Assembly: GCA_023251835.1 (NCBI GenBank)
Contig: JAHEXZ010000031.1
Coordinates: 1 to 43,936 of the forward strand
DNA: 43,936 nt
DNA from: Bacteroidota bacterium
Lineage (GTDB): Bacteria; Bacteroidota; Bacteroidia; 2-12-FULL-35-15
Direction of reading: 5' to 3'
This document shows positions 16,058-33,401 of the stretch, in pieces. Both the position numbers and the translations under genes were made by a program. The notes under the pieces are model-generated. The model was given only the letters and a program-made list of their open reading frames with translations. It was not told the origin of the DNA and did not search any database. Each line of letters opens with the position of its first letter. Position 1 is the first letter of the stretch.

Positions 16058-16152
16058 ATTAAATAATTAAACAATCAGGCAGTTGGCAATTTTCCATAGT
16101 GGTTCTTATACTAATTGATTACTGCAAAGATTGTTAAACTATACAATAGATA

Positions 16153-17448
16153 ATGAAAGTATTTAAATTCGGTGGAGCATCAGTAAAAGATGCAGAAGCC
16201 GTAAAAAATGTAGCGACCATCTTAAAACAATACCCTGATGAGCGCATTATAGTGGTGGTATCAGCAATGGGAAAAACAACCAATGCGCTGGAACAATTAA
16301 CGAATGCTTTTTTTTATCACAATAAGAATGTAGAAACACTTCTCAATGAAATAAAAAAATATCATTTTGATATTATTGAACAGTTGTTTCCCGATAAAAA
16401 TCATCCGATTTACAATGATGTCAATAATGCTTTTATTGAGCTGGATTGGGCAATAGAAGGCGAGCCTACACATAGTTATGATCATGAGTACGATCAAATT
16501 GTTAGTATTGGTGAGCTTATTTCCACAAAAATTGTTTCTGCGTGCCTGAGTGAAGCAGGAATTGCCAATAAATGGCAGGATGCACGCGACTTTATTCAAA
16601 CTGACAATACCCATCGTGAAGGAAAAATAAACTGGGAGCTTACACAACAACTTGTAAACCACTCCACCTCACCCCTTTCCCCTCTCCACATGGAGAGGGG
16701 AAAGATGGAAAAAATTATTGTTACTCAGGGATTTATTGGGGGGACTTCGGAAAATTTCACTACTACTTTAGGACGTGAAGGTTCAGATTATACAGCCGCT
16801 ATCATTGCATATACAATGAATGCTGAAAGTGTAACCATCTGGAAAGATGTTCCGGGTGTTTTGAATGCCGACCCCAAGTGGTTTGAAAAAACGCAAAAAC
16901 TGGAGCAGATTTCCTACCAGGATGCTATAGAGCTGGCATATTATGGTGCTACGGTGATTCATCCCAAGACGATTAAGCCGCTTCAAAACAAGAAAATTCC
17001 ATTGTATGTAAAATCTTTTATTAATCCTGAAGAAGCGGGAACGGTTATTAATGATGTTCAATCTTCATTGCCCGTGCCTTGTTTTATTTTTAAGATAAAC
17101 CAGGTCTTAGCTTCTATTTCTCCTAAGGATTTTTCATTTATTGTTGAAGAGAATCTCAGTGATATTTTTAAACTATTTGCTGAAAGGCATATAAAAATAA
17201 ATATGATGCAAAATTCAGCCATCAGTTTTTCACTTTGTATTGATAACGATCCGTACAAACTGCCAGAATTAATAAAAACACTTCAAAAAGATTACAGAGT
17301 TCTTTATAATGAACAACTGGAACTAATCACCATACGCTATTATGATCAGGCAACCATTGACCGGGTGACTGCCAATAAAAAAATATTACTTGAGGTAAAA
17401 AGCAGGTATACAGCTCAAATGGTGGTGAAACCAGCATCATTTATGTAA
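16153..17448 (+). CDS. lysC: Aspartate kinase
   Basis: This enzyme phosphorylates aspartate, the first step to lysine, threonine, methionine and diaminopimelate. The 431-residue protein has the N-terminal KFGGASVKD motif, the GEL/STKIV region and TLGREGSDYTAAIIAY, and C-terminal ACT-type regulatory segments (about residues 310-425). It is a single-function enzyme with no homoserine dehydrogenase domain. About 16 codons (16660-16707, HSTSPLSPLHMERGKM) are encoded by an inserted palindromic repeat that keeps the frame and falls in a probable surface loop just before the strand KIIVTQGFIGG. The enzyme is probably active because all core motifs remain. Confidence 0.92.
   Translation: MKVFKFGGASVKDAEAVKNVATILKQYPDERIIVVVSAMGKTTNALEQLTNAFFYHNKNVETLLNEIKKYHFDIIEQLFPDKNHPIYNDVNNAFIELDWAIEGEPTHSYDHEYDQIVSIGELISTKIVSACLSEAGIANKWQDARDFIQTDNTHREGKINWELTQQLVNHSTSPLSPLHMERGKMEKIIVTQGFIGGTSENFTTTLGREGSDYTAAIIAYTMNAESVTIWKDVPGVLNADPKWFEKTQKLEQISYQDAIELAYYGATVIHPKTIKPLQNKKIPLYVKSFINPEEAGTVINDVQSSLPVPCFIFKINQVLASISPKDFSFIVEENLSDIFKLFAERHIKINMMQNSAISFSLCIDNDPYKLPELIKTLQKDYRVLYNEQLELITIRYYDQATIDRVTANKKILLEVKSRYTAQMVVKPASFM
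16675..16704. repeat. Perfect 30-base palindrome inserted in the lysC reading frame
   Basis: The arms CTTTCCCCTCTCCA (16675-16688) and TGGAGAGGGGAAAG (16691-16704) are perfect inverted copies with only CA between them. The C-rich left arm followed by a G-rich right arm is typical of intergenic repeats in Bacteroidota genomes. Here it is translated in frame as part of aspartokinase. Confidence 0.75.
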
Positions 17449-17467
17449 CCCTTTAAAAATTTAAGAT

Positions 17468-18394
17468 ATGAAAAGTAGTATTCTGGTAATAATTTTTATA
17501 ATAGAAGGAACTTTAGTTAACCTATTATATTCTCAAACTGCAAGTGCTTATTCTACGAGCGGTAATTATAAATATTGCGACCGTGATTTTAATGGTGCAA
17601 TAAGTGATTTTTCTAAAGCGATCGAATTGAATCCTGGGATTGATACCTTATATAATAGAAGGGGAGCTGCATATTCCGAAATACGAGATTATAACAGGGC
17701 AATTGACGATTTCACAAAAGCAATTGAACTTAATCCAAAGCAAGGTGATTTTTTTTACAATCGAGGATTGATGTATACCAATATAGGAAGTTACAAAAAG
17801 GCAATTGCTGATTTTTCCGAAGCTATAGACCTAAACTCCAGAGATGCTTCATCCTATAATGAAAGAGGATGCGTGTACGATGACCTGAAAAAGTATAAAA
17901 AGGCGATTGCAGATATTTCTATGGCAATAGAATTTGAACCTAAAAATTGTGATTATTTATATAACAGGGGTCTTGTATATAACCATTATAAACGTCATAA
18001 AATGGCAATTGCTGATTTCTCCCATGCTATAGAATTAGACCCTAAAAATGCCGACTATTATAATGATAGAGGAATTGCTTACAATTTGAGCACACTGGGC
18101 GACACCATTAAGGTTATTTCCGATTTTTCTACTGCTATTAAGCTGAATCCTAATGATTATAAGGCCTATTTCAACCGAGGATTAATATATGAATCTCAAA
18201 AAAAACAGGAGAAAGCCATGCAGGATTATTCCAAAGTTGTGGAATTAGAGCCTATTGAAGCAGAGGTTAATCAAACATTAGGAGATGTTTATTATCGTTT
18301 GAAAGAGTATGAAAAAGCCTGTAACAGTTATAACCGGGCTTCAAACCTTGGTAGTAAAAACGCCAGAAAAAAAGTAACTAAGCACTGTAGATAA
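17468..18394 (+). CDS. Exported tetratricopeptide-repeat protein
   Basis: The 308-residue protein starts with a signal peptide (about residues 1-22, ending LLYSQ). The rest is about seven TPR units of 34-36 residues with the consensus YNRGxxYxxxxxYxxAIxDFxxAIELxPK, plus a shorter final unit (ADVYYRLKEYEKACNSYNRA type). It is a solenoid scaffold, probably periplasmic, with no enzymatic domain. It follows the aspartokinase gene by 19 bases but is unlikely to be related in function. Specific partners cannot be inferred. Confidence 0.75.
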   Translation: MKSSILVIIFIIEGTLVNLLYSQTASAYSTSGNYKYCDRDFNGAISDFSKAIELNPGIDTLYNRRGAAYSEIRDYNRAIDDFTKAIELNPKQGDFFYNRGLMYTNIGSYKKAIADFSEAIDLNSRDASSYNERGCVYDDLKKYKKAIADISMAIEFEPKNCDYLYNRGLVYNHYKRHKMAIADFSHAIELDPKNADYYNDRGIAYNLSTLGDTIKVISDFSTAIKLNPNDYKAYFNRGLIYESQKKQEKAMQDYSKVVELEPIEAEVNQTLGDVYYRLKEYEKACNSYNRASNLGSKNARKKVTKHCR

Positions 18395-19640: not shown

Positions 19641-19793
19641 TATACTGTGCACGGGATAAATTTCCGCATTGTTATATTTCAAAATGGCCAACCCAGATAC
19701 TTCGACAAGCTCAGTATGACTGGCACACGGGTCACTCTGAGCTTGTCGAAGAGTGTGGGCTGGATTGCGGAAATTTATCCCGTTTAATGTATA
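19641..19793. repeat. Large nested palindromic element
   Basis: Outer ends TATAC (19641-19645) and GTATA (19789-19793) are followed inward, after five bases on each side, by perfect 18-base arms beginning ACGGGATAAATTTCC (19651-19668 and 19766-19783). Further in, CCAACCCA pairs with TGGGCTGG with one mismatch. At the core are perfect 15-base arms CTTCGACAAGCTCAG (19700-19714) and CTGAGCTTGTCGAAG (19737-19751). A degenerate C-run/G-run repeat lies just before it at about 19609-19640. No reading frame is present. Confidence 0.75.
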
Positions 19794-20927: not shown

Positions 20928-21620
20928 TTATTCGTTAATTTTCTTGTGGCTGACTTTATTACCTTCCAACACAATTACAATCTCGCCTTTTATTGTTTTA
21001 TTTTTGAAATAATCAAGTACATCTTGTAGGCTGCCTCGCTTAGTTTCTTCAAATATTTTGGTAAGCTCCCGTGATACGGATACTTTTCGTTCAGCACCAA
21101 AAAACTCAATAAATTCCTCCAATATCTTAATTAATCTGTATGGTGATTCATAAAAAATCATTGTGCGCTCTTCATCTTGTAATGATTTTATTTTTGTCTG
21201 ACGGCCTTTCTTCTGAGGTAAAAAACCTTCAAAACAAAAAGTATCGCAAGGCAAACCAGAATTTACTAATGCCGGAACAAATGCCGTTGGGCCAGGCAAA
21301 CACTCCACTTCTATATCTTGTTTAATACATTCTCTTACAAGAAAAAACCCGGGATCAGAAATAGCAGGAGTGCCGGCATCCGTGATTAAAGCAACACTTT
21401 CACCATTTGCAATACGTTCAGCAATCATTGCTGCTGTTTTGTGTTCATTATGCTGATGATGAGAAAACATTTTTTTGTTAATATTTAAATGTTTTAATAA
21501 AATCCCCGATTTACGGGTATCTTCCGCTATTATTAAATCTACCTCCTTTAATACACGTATTGCCCTAAGTGTTATATCTTCAAGGTTTCCGATGGGTGTA
21601 GGTACTATGTATAGTTTCAT
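20928..21620 (-). CDS. rsmI: 16S rRNA (cytidine(1402)-2'-O)-methyltransferase
   Basis: RsmI methylates the 2'-O of C1402 in the ribosomal P site using SAM. The 230-residue protein starts MKLYIVPTPIGNLEDITLRA and continues with IIAEDTRKSGILLKHL, ALITDAGTPAISDPGFFLV and the LPGPTAFVPALVNSGLPCDTF region, all RsmI signatures of the tetrapyrrole-methylase fold. It is slightly short at the C-terminus compared with E. coli RsmI. It is followed by corA with a 10-base gap. Confidence 0.95.
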   Translation of the reverse strand: MKLYIVPTPIGNLEDITLRAIRVLKEVDLIIAEDTRKSGILLKHLNINKKMFSHHQHNEHKTAAMIAERIANGESVALITDAGTPAISDPGFFLVRECIKQDIEVECLPGPTAFVPALVNSGLPCDTFCFEGFLPQKKGRQTKIKSLQDEERTMIFYESPYRLIKILEEFIEFFGAERKVSVSRELTKIFEETKRGSLQDVLDYFKNKTIKGEIVIVLEGNKVSHKKINE

Positions 21621-21639
21621 TTTAATTACAGTTAATAAT

Positions 21640-21658
21640 TCCCCCTTGAAAAGGGGGA
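21640..21658. terminator. Hairpin between the M28 peptidase gene and rsmI
   Basis: TCCCCCTTGAAAAGGGGGA has 8-base arms and a 3-base loop. It lies 18 bases past the peptidase stop codon on the minus strand. An AT-rich stretch follows but not a clear T-run, so a terminator role is possible but not certain. The C/G-rich arms also resemble the family of dispersed repeats. Confidence 0.35.
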
Positions 21659-21676
21659 GTTTGTTTCCGTTACTTT

Positions 21677-23821: not shown

Positions 23822-23932
23822 TATACCGAAACAATTTAGATTTCCGAAAATTTAAAATCCCGCACGTGCGGGATTCGGCATAACTGAGAGTACGTTATCT
23901 TTACATTCGTAAATCTAACTGATCTCGGTATA
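23822..23932. repeat. Nested palindromic element upstream of tdk
   Basis: Outer arms TATACCGA (23822-23829) and TCGGTATA (23925-23932) enclose TTAGATTTCCGAA (from 23836) opposite TTCGTAAATCTAA (ending 23918), with one mismatch in 13. Inside is the perfect palindrome AATCCCGCACGTGCGGGATT (23856-23875), off centre. The layout, with TATAC/GTATA ends and nested stems, resembles the element at 19641-19793. It would also lie in or near the 5' leader of tdk. Confidence 0.6.
23896..23903 (+). promoter_or_regulatory. Possible -7 element for tdk within the hairpin element
   Basis: TATCTTTA differs by one base from TAnnTTTG and lies 60 bases upstream of the tdk ATG. It falls in the unpaired part of the palindromic element, so the repeat may carry the promoter. 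Confidence 0.3.
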
Positions 23933-30063: not shown

Positions 30064-31005
30064 TTATTTTATCACGTTATACTTACCTCTGGTCAATACC
30101 CTTTTTTCCCTGTCACTTATTTGATACAGATAAAGTCCTGTATCAAATAAGTGTATATTAATATTTACTTTACCATTTTCAAGAATATAATCGGCTACAG
30201 GTTTTCCGGAAATATCAATTATACGAACGTTGCAAGCATCTTTAAAAGATGTTTGAATTATGACATTATCTTTTGCAGGGTTAGGAAATACTTTTGTGTA
30301 ATTATCCTTTTTTTTTGTTTCATCAATTCCCACCCAACCGGTTAATTGTACGTCATCAACATATAGAATACTGTTTACACGGGCAGTAGAGAAATCATAA
30401 CTGGGTGAGAAGCCAATCACAGCAGAATCGGGTATTTCTTCCATATAATAATCTATAAATATCTCGAAAAAAGTATATACCGGTGTTGGTGATAATTTTA
30501 TTTTTCCTAATCCAACTGTGTCAGCACTTACGCCATTCCATTTTTTAAGAAAAACAACAATACCAGCCGAATCATTGCCAACAGGATTGTATTTTGCCCA
30601 AAAATTGAGTTTTTCAGGTCTGTCGGTATATGAAAGACCATATACCCAGGTTACTGGTGATAAATTTATTTTACCCGTAAAAACACCACCAGTTGTGTCG
30701 CCCAGAAGCCCTGCCAATGGATTGTTATTCACATAAATTGTTTTTAGCTGCAATGCATAGTTTCCTGAATGCTTATCTATACCTATTGCTTTAAAAGCAG
30801 AAAGTGGATTGGGAGGCGATGTTAACGATAAGAAATTGAGTGTTTGCCAGCCATCAGGATTCTCATATGAGAATTCGGTTGTCCAATTTTCAAAACCACC
30901 ATTCGGCTGGGCAATACTCTTATCAGCGTATAGAAACGCAATGAATACAAGTAAAAAAATATTTATTTGTTTAATCACAATAAAATTGTTTTTTAACAGA
31001 TGCAT
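30064..31005 (-). CDS. T9SS-exported PCMD-like protein, paralogue A
   Basis: The 313-residue protein has a signal peptide with a longer basic N-terminus (MHLLKNNFIVIKQ ...), cleaved near KSIAQ, then PNGGFENWTTEFSYENPDGW. The central beta-sandwich shares with paralogue B the runs PPNPLSAFKA, GIDKHSGNYALQLKTIYV and LYVDDVQLTGWVGIDE. The T9SS domain reads VFPNPAKDNVIIQ and ends GKYNVIK, while B ends GKFNVIK. Divergence is mostly in the middle loops, which would be the exposed face. The gene lies 48 bases downstream of the kelch lipoprotein gene. Confidence 0.75.
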   Translation of the reverse strand: MHLLKNNFIVIKQINIFLLVFIAFLYADKSIAQPNGGFENWTTEFSYENPDGWQTLNFLSLTSPPNPLSAFKAIGIDKHSGNYALQLKTIYVNNNPLAGLLGDTTGGVFTGKINLSPVTWVYGLSYTDRPEKLNFWAKYNPVGNDSAGIVVFLKKWNGVSADTVGLGKIKLSPTPVYTFFEIFIDYYMEEIPDSAVIGFSPSYDFSTARVNSILYVDDVQLTGWVGIDETKKKDNYTKVFPNPAKDNVIIQTSFKDACNVRIIDISGKPVADYILENGKVNINIHLFDTGLYLYQISDREKRVLTRGKYNVIK

Positions 31006-31053: not shown

Positions 31054-32262
31054 CTATTGGCCATATACCCAGAAATCATTGAGGCTAACACCTCCATTAT
31101 TCCCCAGGTTTCCCAAACCAATGTAACCATTATTTCCAATTGAAAAACCAACGGCATATCCACGAGCTTCACCGGTAAAATCGTTTTTTTGTTGCCAGGT
31201 GTTTGATTCGGGGTCATATTCATAAAAATCTTTATAATTTATATTGCCATCAAAACCAGCAACAATGTACCCTTTAGTACCTATGGAAAACCCTGATGCT
31301 GCATAACGTGCGGCTCCTGGAAAATTGGTTTTAGCAGTCCATATATCCAATTCCGGATCATATTCCCAAAAATCTTTTTGTGCAAAACTTGAAGGACTGC
31401 TGCCCAATCCAAGATATCCTTTATTTCCTATTGAAAAACCTACCGCACCCTGACGCGATACAACAGCCGATTTTTCTGTCCACTGATCGGTTTGAGGATT
31501 GTACTCCCAAAAATCCTGAGGGAAGGTAAAATCTTCTTTACGGCCGGAACCTATATACCCTTTGTTTAGAATTGAAAAGCCGAATGCAAATTCTCTTTTA
31601 CCACCAGGAAACACAGCTTTCTGTAGCCATTGATTCTGCACCGGATCGTATTCCCAAAAATCATCATAATAATCAACTGTATTATAACCCAGTCCAACGT
31701 ACCCTTTGTTATTTATTGAAAAACCTACAGCATCAAACCGGGCAGCTCCTGGAAAATCTGTTTTTTGTGTCCATTGATTCAAAGCCGGATCAAACTCCCA
31801 AAAATCATTATATCTGTTATTGGTCATATCTGTTCCTGTACCAACATAACCTTTGCTTCCAATTGAAAAACCAATCGCATTTGTTCTTGTCCCCGGTTTA
31901 AAATTTATTTCACGGCACCATGTATTTGAAACTCCACCCTGAGTAATCTCTATATAAGAAGGAGGGCTTACTTCCTTATCGTTACAGGATTTAACATATA
32001 TTAATCCTGAATTTTTACCAAAATCAATAACGATAGAAGTAGTTCCCTGCCCTGAAGTTATTTTACAATCTTCAGGAACAGTCCATAAATAGTAGTTAGC
32101 GCCATCAACAGGAGCAATAGAATAAATAACACCAGTTTCTCCGGGACATAAATTTTTTGCACCAGAAATCAATCCCGGTATTGGGGGTATTTTATCCTTT
32201 TTACAGGCGATTAAAAACAATACTAAGAAAAATGATATATAAATTCGTTTTTCAAAAAACAT
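31054..32262 (-). CDS. Lipoprotein with PKD-like domain and six-kelch propeller
   Basis: The 402-residue protein has a lipoprotein signal peptide with lipobox LIAC (Cys20) followed by KKDK. A PKD-like beta domain (about residues 30-110, with GANYYLWTVPEDC) leads to six kelch repeats of about 48-50 residues with the consensus GFSIGxKGYxGxG then DFWEYDPxxNxWxxKxxFPG. Six units make a complete propeller. The protein is probably anchored in the outer membrane and binds protein or glycan. Its ATG overlaps the TAA of the upstream TPR/barrel gene by one base, so the two are coupled. Confidence 0.82.
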   Translation of the reverse strand: MFFEKRIYISFFLVLFLIACKKDKIPPIPGLISGAKNLCPGETGVIYSIAPVDGANYYLWTVPEDCKITSGQGTTSIVIDFGKNSGLIYVKSCNDKEVSPPSYIEITQGGVSNTWCREINFKPGTRTNAIGFSIGSKGYVGTGTDMTNNRYNDFWEFDPALNQWTQKTDFPGAARFDAVGFSINNKGYVGLGYNTVDYYDDFWEYDPVQNQWLQKAVFPGGKREFAFGFSILNKGYIGSGRKEDFTFPQDFWEYNPQTDQWTEKSAVVSRQGAVGFSIGNKGYLGLGSSPSSFAQKDFWEYDPELDIWTAKTNFPGAARYAASGFSIGTKGYIVAGFDGNINYKDFYEYDPESNTWQQKNDFTGEARGYAVGFSIGNNGYIGLGNLGNNGGVSLNDFWVYGQ

Positions 32263-33401
32263 TATCTAACTTTTTTTATTACATTTTTTAAAGTGTAAGA
32301 GATAGAGAGTCCTATTTCATATTTATTCATTTTTATAGAATTATCGACATAGAAATAGTCATTCACCAACACATTATTGTCGTATCTTTTTGCAGCACTC
32401 GTCAAACTATTTATTCCACCGGAATAGCGGGCATTGAAATATATTCCAAGATTTTTAAATTTAAAACCAACCCCAATGCCGGCAAGCCATTCGTAACTGT
32501 TTTTATTTCTTTGTGGCAACATATCGGCAACCTCAACTGACACATAATCTGTTTTATGTCCTGTATAAATATCTTCATCAGGATAATAAATGTCAGCGGT
32601 TCCCTTTGCCTGTAACATCCTCATATAGCCAACTCCAAGTGAGGCGTAAGCTGAAACATTTTTTTCTGTAAAGAAATATTTTTTCAAATACAATGGCACC
32701 TCAATAAAAGAGAGTTGTTCCATGTAATTCATTTTCCAGTCAGGCCTTCTAGTAAAACTCCTGTTATAAGAAATATTAAAATTAATGATGTCGGTATTTA
32801 AAGAGAGATTTTTTTTAAATTCATATTCAAGAATTAAATAATACAAGAGTACCGTTTTTTTTGTCTGATAAGGAACATTATAGTCAAGGTCATCAAGAAT
32901 AGAATATGTTTTTGTGCTTTTGAATTGAGGTTGCATTCCGGTATTTCGTAAGCCTATAGAAAATTGGGGATGTATATCAAACTTTTTTACTAAAACATCA
33001 AAATTTTCGTGATCATTATTTTCTTTTGATTCATAAAGAGGATTGTTTTTCAGCAATTTATATACTGTTTTTTCTGCCTGAACCAGATTATCCTGTTCCA
33101 GATAAGCTTTTGCAAGCAGCTCCAGAATAATTTCTTTCTTTTTCTTTGATAAATCACAATCTTCAAGCGTTTTTTCAAGTAATTGAACACAATTATCGTA
33201 ATCACCTCCGGCATAAAGTTCATCTGCCTGTTTCATATTTTGTTCACAGCTATTTTGTGCACTCATAGTGCTGAAACAACAAATAGAAAAGAGAATAAGA
33301 ATATAAAAGTGTGGGCGGACATCTCGTAAACCAATGGAAAAGATTTCTCGGCTTCGCTCGAAATGACAGGTTGAATACATTTTTAGAGTCTTTAGTCCCA
33401 T
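32262..33401 (-). CDS. TPR and outer-membrane beta-barrel protein
   Basis: The signal peptide lies unusually far in: residues ~30-48 (HFYILILFSICCFSTMSAQ). The first ~29 residues contain CHFERSREIFS, encoded by a dispersed repeat (33340-33370), so the annotated start at 33401 is uncertain, and no other in-frame ATG near the signal peptide is seen apart from 33380. After the signal, two TPR-like units (EQNMKQADELYAGGDYDNC ... LAKAYLEQDNLVQAEKTVY) precede a barrel of about 230 residues with alternating aromatic strands, ending IGLSISYTLKNV. It is likely an outer-membrane platform for the lipoprotein and secreted proteins encoded next to it. The nSTAND gene ends 21 bases upstream. Confidence 0.65.
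   Translation of the reverse strand: MGLKTLKMYSTCHFERSREIFSIGLRDVRPHFYILILFSICCFSTMSAQNSCEQNMKQADELYAGGDYDNCVQLLEKTLEDCDLSKKKKEIILELLAKAYLEQDNLVQAEKTVYKLLKNNPLYESKENNDHENFDVLVKKFDIHPQFSIGLRNTGMQPQFKSTKTYSILDDLDYNVPYQTKKTVLLYYLILEYEFKKNLSLNTDIINFNISYNRSFTRRPDWKMNYMEQLSFIEVPLYLKKYFFTEKNVSAYASLGVGYMRMLQAKGTADIYYPDEDIYTGHKTDYVSVEVADMLPQRNKNSYEWLAGIGVGFKFKNLGIYFNARYSGGINSLTSAAKRYDNNVLVNDYFYVDNSIKMNKYEIGLSISYTLKNVIKKVR
33340..33370. repeat. Dispersed repeat forming the N-terminal codons of the TPR/barrel gene
   Basis: The core TTTCTCGGCTTCGCTCGAAA and its flank ATGACAGG match a repeat that is very common in Bacteroidota genomes and that, read on the minus strand, gives the peptide CHFERSREI in spurious ORFs. 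Here it lies in the 5' part of a real gene. Confidence 0.6.

Follow-up and report, generated by a model that had tools for sequence, protein, structure and literature searches.

Repeats of the BoxC/PIT/TM kind are intrastrand-triplex repeats (Holder et al. 2015, PMC4666352). They have been described since the 1990s, no function is accepted for them, and their spreading route is not established. The TMECO repeats of E. coli are "always located intergenically", are often lost between strains, show no promoter or terminator activity, and are tied to local sequence instability; an isolated strand can form a triplex, and triplex formation in vivo is unsupported (PMC4666352). In the same paper, the repeats were counted in 262 proteobacterial genomes, and TMECO no. 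17 is given as CCCTCTCCC TGA GGGAGAGGG TTA GGGTGAGGGG. Palindromic repeats read in frame within conserved genes include the Rickettsia palindromic elements (RPEs) and intragenic REPs with GTAG/CGTC tags (PMC3733652). RPEs are 105–146 nt long (PMC2229807) and end in CGTC (PMC3733652).

The DNA analyzed here (the window) was a stretch of 43,936 nucleotides from a 4.1-Mb genome (171 contigs) of an uncultured Bacteroidia genus with named relatives among metagenome assemblies (for example, SW_35, palsa_966, and Kiruna_bin-09443). The gene lysC was identified at 16153–17448 on the plus strand from its ORF, family models, and invariant residues. It consisted of one uninterrupted frame encoding a monofunctional aspartate kinase of 431 aa. 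The product scored above the cut-offs of the profile models Pfam AA_kinase and NCBIfam TIGR00657 (275 bits for the latter, cut-off 209), its fold matched 3c1m and 2j0w, and all the invariant residues of 36 LysC relatives were kept. A second aspartokinase frame of 450 aa, 30% identical to the LysC of the window, was found at G000:C126:1766–2857; LysC may therefore not be the only aspartokinase of the genome. The original prediction had described a palindromic repeat tolerated in an essential enzyme; tolerance in a conserved enzyme was supported, and in view of the second frame the enzyme may not be essential.

An inverted-repeat search located two 14-nt arms around a 2-nt center at 16675–16704 (CTTTCCCCTCTCCA-CA-TGGAGAGGGGAAAG), between the conserved LysC motifs TDN...REG and TQGF.GGTSENFTTTLGREGSDYT. 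Inverted repeats with arms of at least 14 nt were absent from 40 dinucleotide shuffles of the window. The repeat had been predicted to be a 30-base perfect palindrome, translated in frame between conserved motifs of the aspartokinase. The frame and the position were confirmed; the inverted repeat is real, but 28 of its 30 bases pair, the central CA is unpaired, and it is at the core of a longer element with three arms and 34 nt (CCTCACCCC-TTT-CCCCTCTCC-ACAT-GGAGAGGGG, 16667–16700). This element, designated as type A, lies on the minus strand. On the plus strand, it was made up of the outer third arm CCTCACCCC (16667–16675), the inner C-rich arm CCCCTCTCC (16679–16687), the loop ACAT (16688–16691), and the inner G-rich arm GGAGAGGGG (16692–16700). 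On the minus strand, stems A and B were CCCCTCTCC and GGAGAGGGG, separated by the loop ATGT and followed by the loop AAA and stem C (GGGGTGAGG).

The outer arm mirrored the inner arm. Its interpretation as a direct repeat was discarded; as a mirror repeat, it pointed to the triplex family. An Rfam scan of 16100–17500 for known RNA families gave only chance-level matches, far under the gathering scores. According to the ITxF definition of class II (three stems of 6–15 nt, triads C-G-G, T-A-A, or T-A-T with at most one mismatch, and loops of 1–6 nt), the lysC element scored 9/9/9 triads with zero mismatch; the A of the outer arm CCTCACCCC corresponds to T on the purine strand and yields the permitted T-A-T triad. 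TMECO no. 17 of E. coli obtained the same score, also without mismatch.

The mirror-image third arm indicated a class II intrastrand-triplex repeat, and on its sequence structure the lysC element is predicted to belong with the BoxC/PIT/TM repeats. The two share three 9-nt G/C-rich arms (C-rich, G-rich, and mirror G-rich) with short loops and the base pattern CCTCTCC / GGAGAGG / GGGTGAGG; both occur in dozens of copies, including pairs in inverted orientation, and their copy number varies strongly among relatives. Because the strict TMECO consensus (CCCTCNCCC-N3-6-GGGNGAGGG-N3-GGGNGAGGG) had 0 matches among the retrieved copies of the own genome, the element is assigned to the broader structural class, as a related variant rather than as a TMECO. 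Unlike the TMECO of E. coli, the element has a Bacteroidota host, and the lysC copy and four or five others lie within genes, in frame.

The original prediction drew a parallel with RPEs, and it held for a coding-compatible repeat that survives in a loop. Like RPEs (PMC2229807, PMC10969869), the element is palindromic, in frame in a conserved enzyme, and tolerated in a loop. Kinship did not follow: the element is 34 nt long against the 105–146 nt given for RPEs in PMC2229807, it lacks the CGTC end (PMC3733652), it has a three-arm mirror structure, it comes from a different phylum, and it is unrelated to RPEs, which have families of their own. Membership of the RPE family was dropped on length and tag, and almost no weight is left to it. 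The GTAG/CGTC intragenic REPs (PMC3733652) are likewise short palindromes in frame in conserved genes, with repair-gene hosts in both cases (uvrA in PMC3733652; uvrA and mfd in this genome), and neither LysC nor ThiC is mentioned in the main text of that paper. Unlike these REPs, the lysC element is three-armed, and neither GTAG nor CGTC was present within 16655–16710 on either strand.

The census of the own genome combined pattern searches with retrieved stretches. The core CCCTCTCC-N2-10-GGAGAGGG had 31 copies, and the reversed control had 0. With core loops of 2–10 nt allowed, 29 of the 31 copies had, at a distance of 1–6 nt to one side of the hairpin, a mirror-image third arm of at least seven class II triads, compared with 1.7% of random and 9.6% of shuffled own flanks. 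The choice of A or T in the outer arm was near-constant (CCTCACCCC or CCTCTCCCC), matching T-A-T or T-A-A triads. Every own copy had stop-free frames, from 2 to 6 of the six. Within the genus, the core was found in 32 of 36 genomes with a maximum of 79 copies, and its loop differed by species (AATT was common in genome G008; GAA or TTC in G015). Across the Bacteroidota, the three-arm pattern was present in 85 of 395 genomes, representing 62 of 171 genera, against a control of nearly 0.

The nearest relative of the window LysC (locus L007, 84% identical, with 99% support for the pairing) was without the element, and its loop was ADKHLLPALSKTKGAVVV compared with VNHSTSPLSPLHMERGKMEKIIV in the window. 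The plus-strand translation of the element gave the 12 residues T172–G183 (TSPLSPLHMERG). The distance from TDN to TQGF was 38 residues in the window and 33 in L007, a net difference of +5; the addition of about 16 residues, as first proposed, was thus too high. Insert-free distances across the class were 27–35 residues. As 12 residues are encoded and the net gain over L007 is five, native loop codons were lost too. An alignment of relatives had been expected to display a precise gap; L007 was element-free, and the nearest empty site had diverged too far for the exact limits of the insertion in lysC to be placed. The cleanest empty site in LysC was that of L016 versus L024 (27 nt), which concerns type B, a second repeat described below.

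The AlphaFold model of the window LysC had a mean pLDDT of 89, and its sole segment below 50 was formed by residues 177–184 (codons at 16681–16704, plus strand), between the helix 161–171 and the strand preceding TQGF. The model of the element-free L007 had no segment below 50 and a longer helix (161–177). From the comparison of the two models, the element appears to have taken the place of the helix end and the turn.

If the segment were a native functional loop under selection, for instance for regulation, the palindrome would be a by-product. Loop length does vary among relatives (the 27–35 residues above, without inserts), but 30 further copies of the motif were scattered over the genome without any shared protein, the sister L007 did not have it, and in G008 it was reversed and gave another peptide, which makes a native loop very improbable. 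Relatives with the segment as native sequence had been named in advance as the observation that would speak against an insertion, and L007 had a different loop. Judged by these alignments, the segment is not native to the protein, and the element would have displaced part of the native loop. The main reading, with a probability of about 0.86, is that the segment is one copy of a G/C-rich, 34-nt BoxC/PIT/TM-type repeat dispersed through the genome, which inserted into lysC at the expense of part of a variable surface loop and has been retained. The absence of stops, the preserved frame, and a position in a flexible turn away from the conserved motifs would account for its retention; the inserted peptide is presumably neutral for the enzyme.

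A search for other copies, especially in genes, had been recommended, and it was productive: five of the 31 own copies were clearly intragenic and in frame (LysC, ThiC, Mfd, KBL, and UvrA). A sixth was located close to the beginning of a 133-aa frame of doubtful status, and GpmI had a further in-frame copy at one mismatch. The coding fraction of the sampled DNA was about 84%, and five of 31 was far below that expectation; arrivals in genes were evidently removed or avoided for the most part, and the survivors are in frame. For KBL, all 31 other orthologues matched in the genus were shorter by the length expected for an empty site. The site was empty in 25 of the 25 orthologues read, which had VNGKDV, VSTGEEV, or close variants against the own VKSPLSMGRGDGGEV, and the insert was 9 residues net when compared with L172. 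ThiC had two inserts, adding 11 and 7 residues; among its relatives, a type B element was found at the first site in G003 and repeat-like inserts at both sites in G021. The UvrA frame (L059:2223–5219, own contig C92; 999 aa) apparently contained three in-frame repeat inserts. The inserts in UvrA and Mfd echo the remark in PMC3733652 that intragenic REPs favor repair genes.

The same LysC loop was occupied in other genomes of the genus. In G008 (L009), it contained a type A element in reverse orientation and hence a different peptide. Type B (TCCCCCTT..AAGGGG..GGGGAT), which also obeys the triplex rule, was found in the loop of G015 (L010), G035 (L016), and G011 (L019), and, with a nested repeat (CCTGTCCTGAGCTTGCCGAAGG), in that of G006 (L015) and G031 (L017). 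Cyanobacterial small dispersed repeats, which are very small, have been reported to insert into each other. Type B was multi-copy in G035, G011, G006, and G031. In the 5.4-Mb genome of G015, the type B pattern matched nothing but the lysC element, which may therefore be a relic or may have come with transferred DNA. The long loops of L012 and L133 resolved no triplex repeat and were not counted as such.

In a tree from which the loop columns had been left out, parsimony gave seven changes at the LysC loop; L012, in which no triplex repeat was identified, was among the rows scored as inserted. On the loop sequences, at least three acquisitions (window, G008, and type B) can safely be proposed. 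The type B copies had position, orientation, and phase in common, and so they might represent a single old gain with later losses. A single ancient insertion in the LysC of the genus, followed by loss, overwriting, or gene conversion between repeats, would account for this agreement among G015, G006/G031, and G011/G035, and would draw on the ease with which palindromes are deleted, TMECOs being often lost between strains (PMC4666352). The type A copies of the window (plus) and G008 (minus), however, were in other parts of the tree and differed in sequence or orientation, and seven changes were required by parsimony, so one insertion for the whole genus is rather unlikely, if worth keeping in view. 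Recurrent entry into this loop probably reflects structural tolerance and not a target sequence.

The arrival of the repeat in lysC most likely took place by template switching during replication or repair at a single strand in the hairpin or triplex, or alternatively through a transposase of single-stranded DNA supplied in trans. In the latter case, the palindrome could be a non-autonomous REP that depends for its movement on a REP-associated tyrosine transposase (RAYT; Y1_Tnp). Three Y1_Tnp matches were present in the own genome, and the number of type A copies in 36 genomes correlated with that of Y1_Tnp (rho 0.48, p 0.003, uncorrected for kinship). Mobilization of this kind was kept as a candidate in view of this correlation but judged unlikely, given that the three own Y1_Tnp genes were flanked by palindromes other than type A, that G011 had 31 type A copies with zero detectable Y1_Tnp, and that the GTAG/CGTC tag was absent at the element. 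The three genes (L051, L052, and L053, on own contigs C124, C81, and C33) each had a different flanking palindrome, namely a GACTCCGGCCGGAGTC array, AAGCGTAGCG..CGCTACGCTT, and TGCACTGAAAGTGCA. Copying driven by Y1_Tnp is no more plausible than template switching at a hairpin or triplex. The best-supported reading is that the repeat is passive and coding-compatible, reaches genes occasionally, and can persist when it is in frame and within a flexible loop. The pattern of presence and absence suggests that the element may be mobile at present.

Other repeats were observed in the window. An intergenic inverted repeat at 19688–19763, with 33-nt arms that were 82% complementary, was built on CTGAGCTTGTCGAAG, the motif nested in the LysC insert of G006 and G031. 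A type B-like hairpin (AATTCCCCCTTGAAAAGGGGGAGTT) was located at 21637–21661, just upstream of the gene at 20928–21620. The perfect 20-nt palindrome at 23856–23875 (AATCCCGCACGTGCGGGATT) belonged to another repeat family and had a near-identical copy, with one base different and identical 12-nt flanks, on own contig C9 (L070:4998–5017). A perfect 16-bp inverted repeat with an 8-nt spacer (30114–30153) was within the coding sequence 30064–31005, whose product has a C-terminal sorting-type domain. The ORF at 32262–33401 starts with MGLKTLKMYSTCHFERSREIFSIG... (33300–33401), which resembles another repeat translated at a gene start; the true start may be downstream.

Three findings are new, no earlier report of them being found in the part of the literature covered: a triplex-type repeat lying in frame within genes, the spread of this kind of repeat in the Bacteroidota, and the recurrent occupation of a single LysC loop. 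Triplex-type DNA would here contribute to protein sequence, a role that RPEs and REPs have in other phyla. The copies in KBL, ThiC, and LysC, together with their empty orthologues, provide alignable insertion sites, which make the arrival, target deletion, and loss of triplex repeats directly testable. It is tentatively proposed, as a possibility short of even odds, that triplex repeats are effectively mobile and keep landing in genes of this Bacteroidia genus, and that the loops of LysC and ThiC are shared recurrent sites where new loop sequence arises. If this is true, triplex-forming DNA would be a source of new protein loop sequence, at sites shared by unrelated repeat families.
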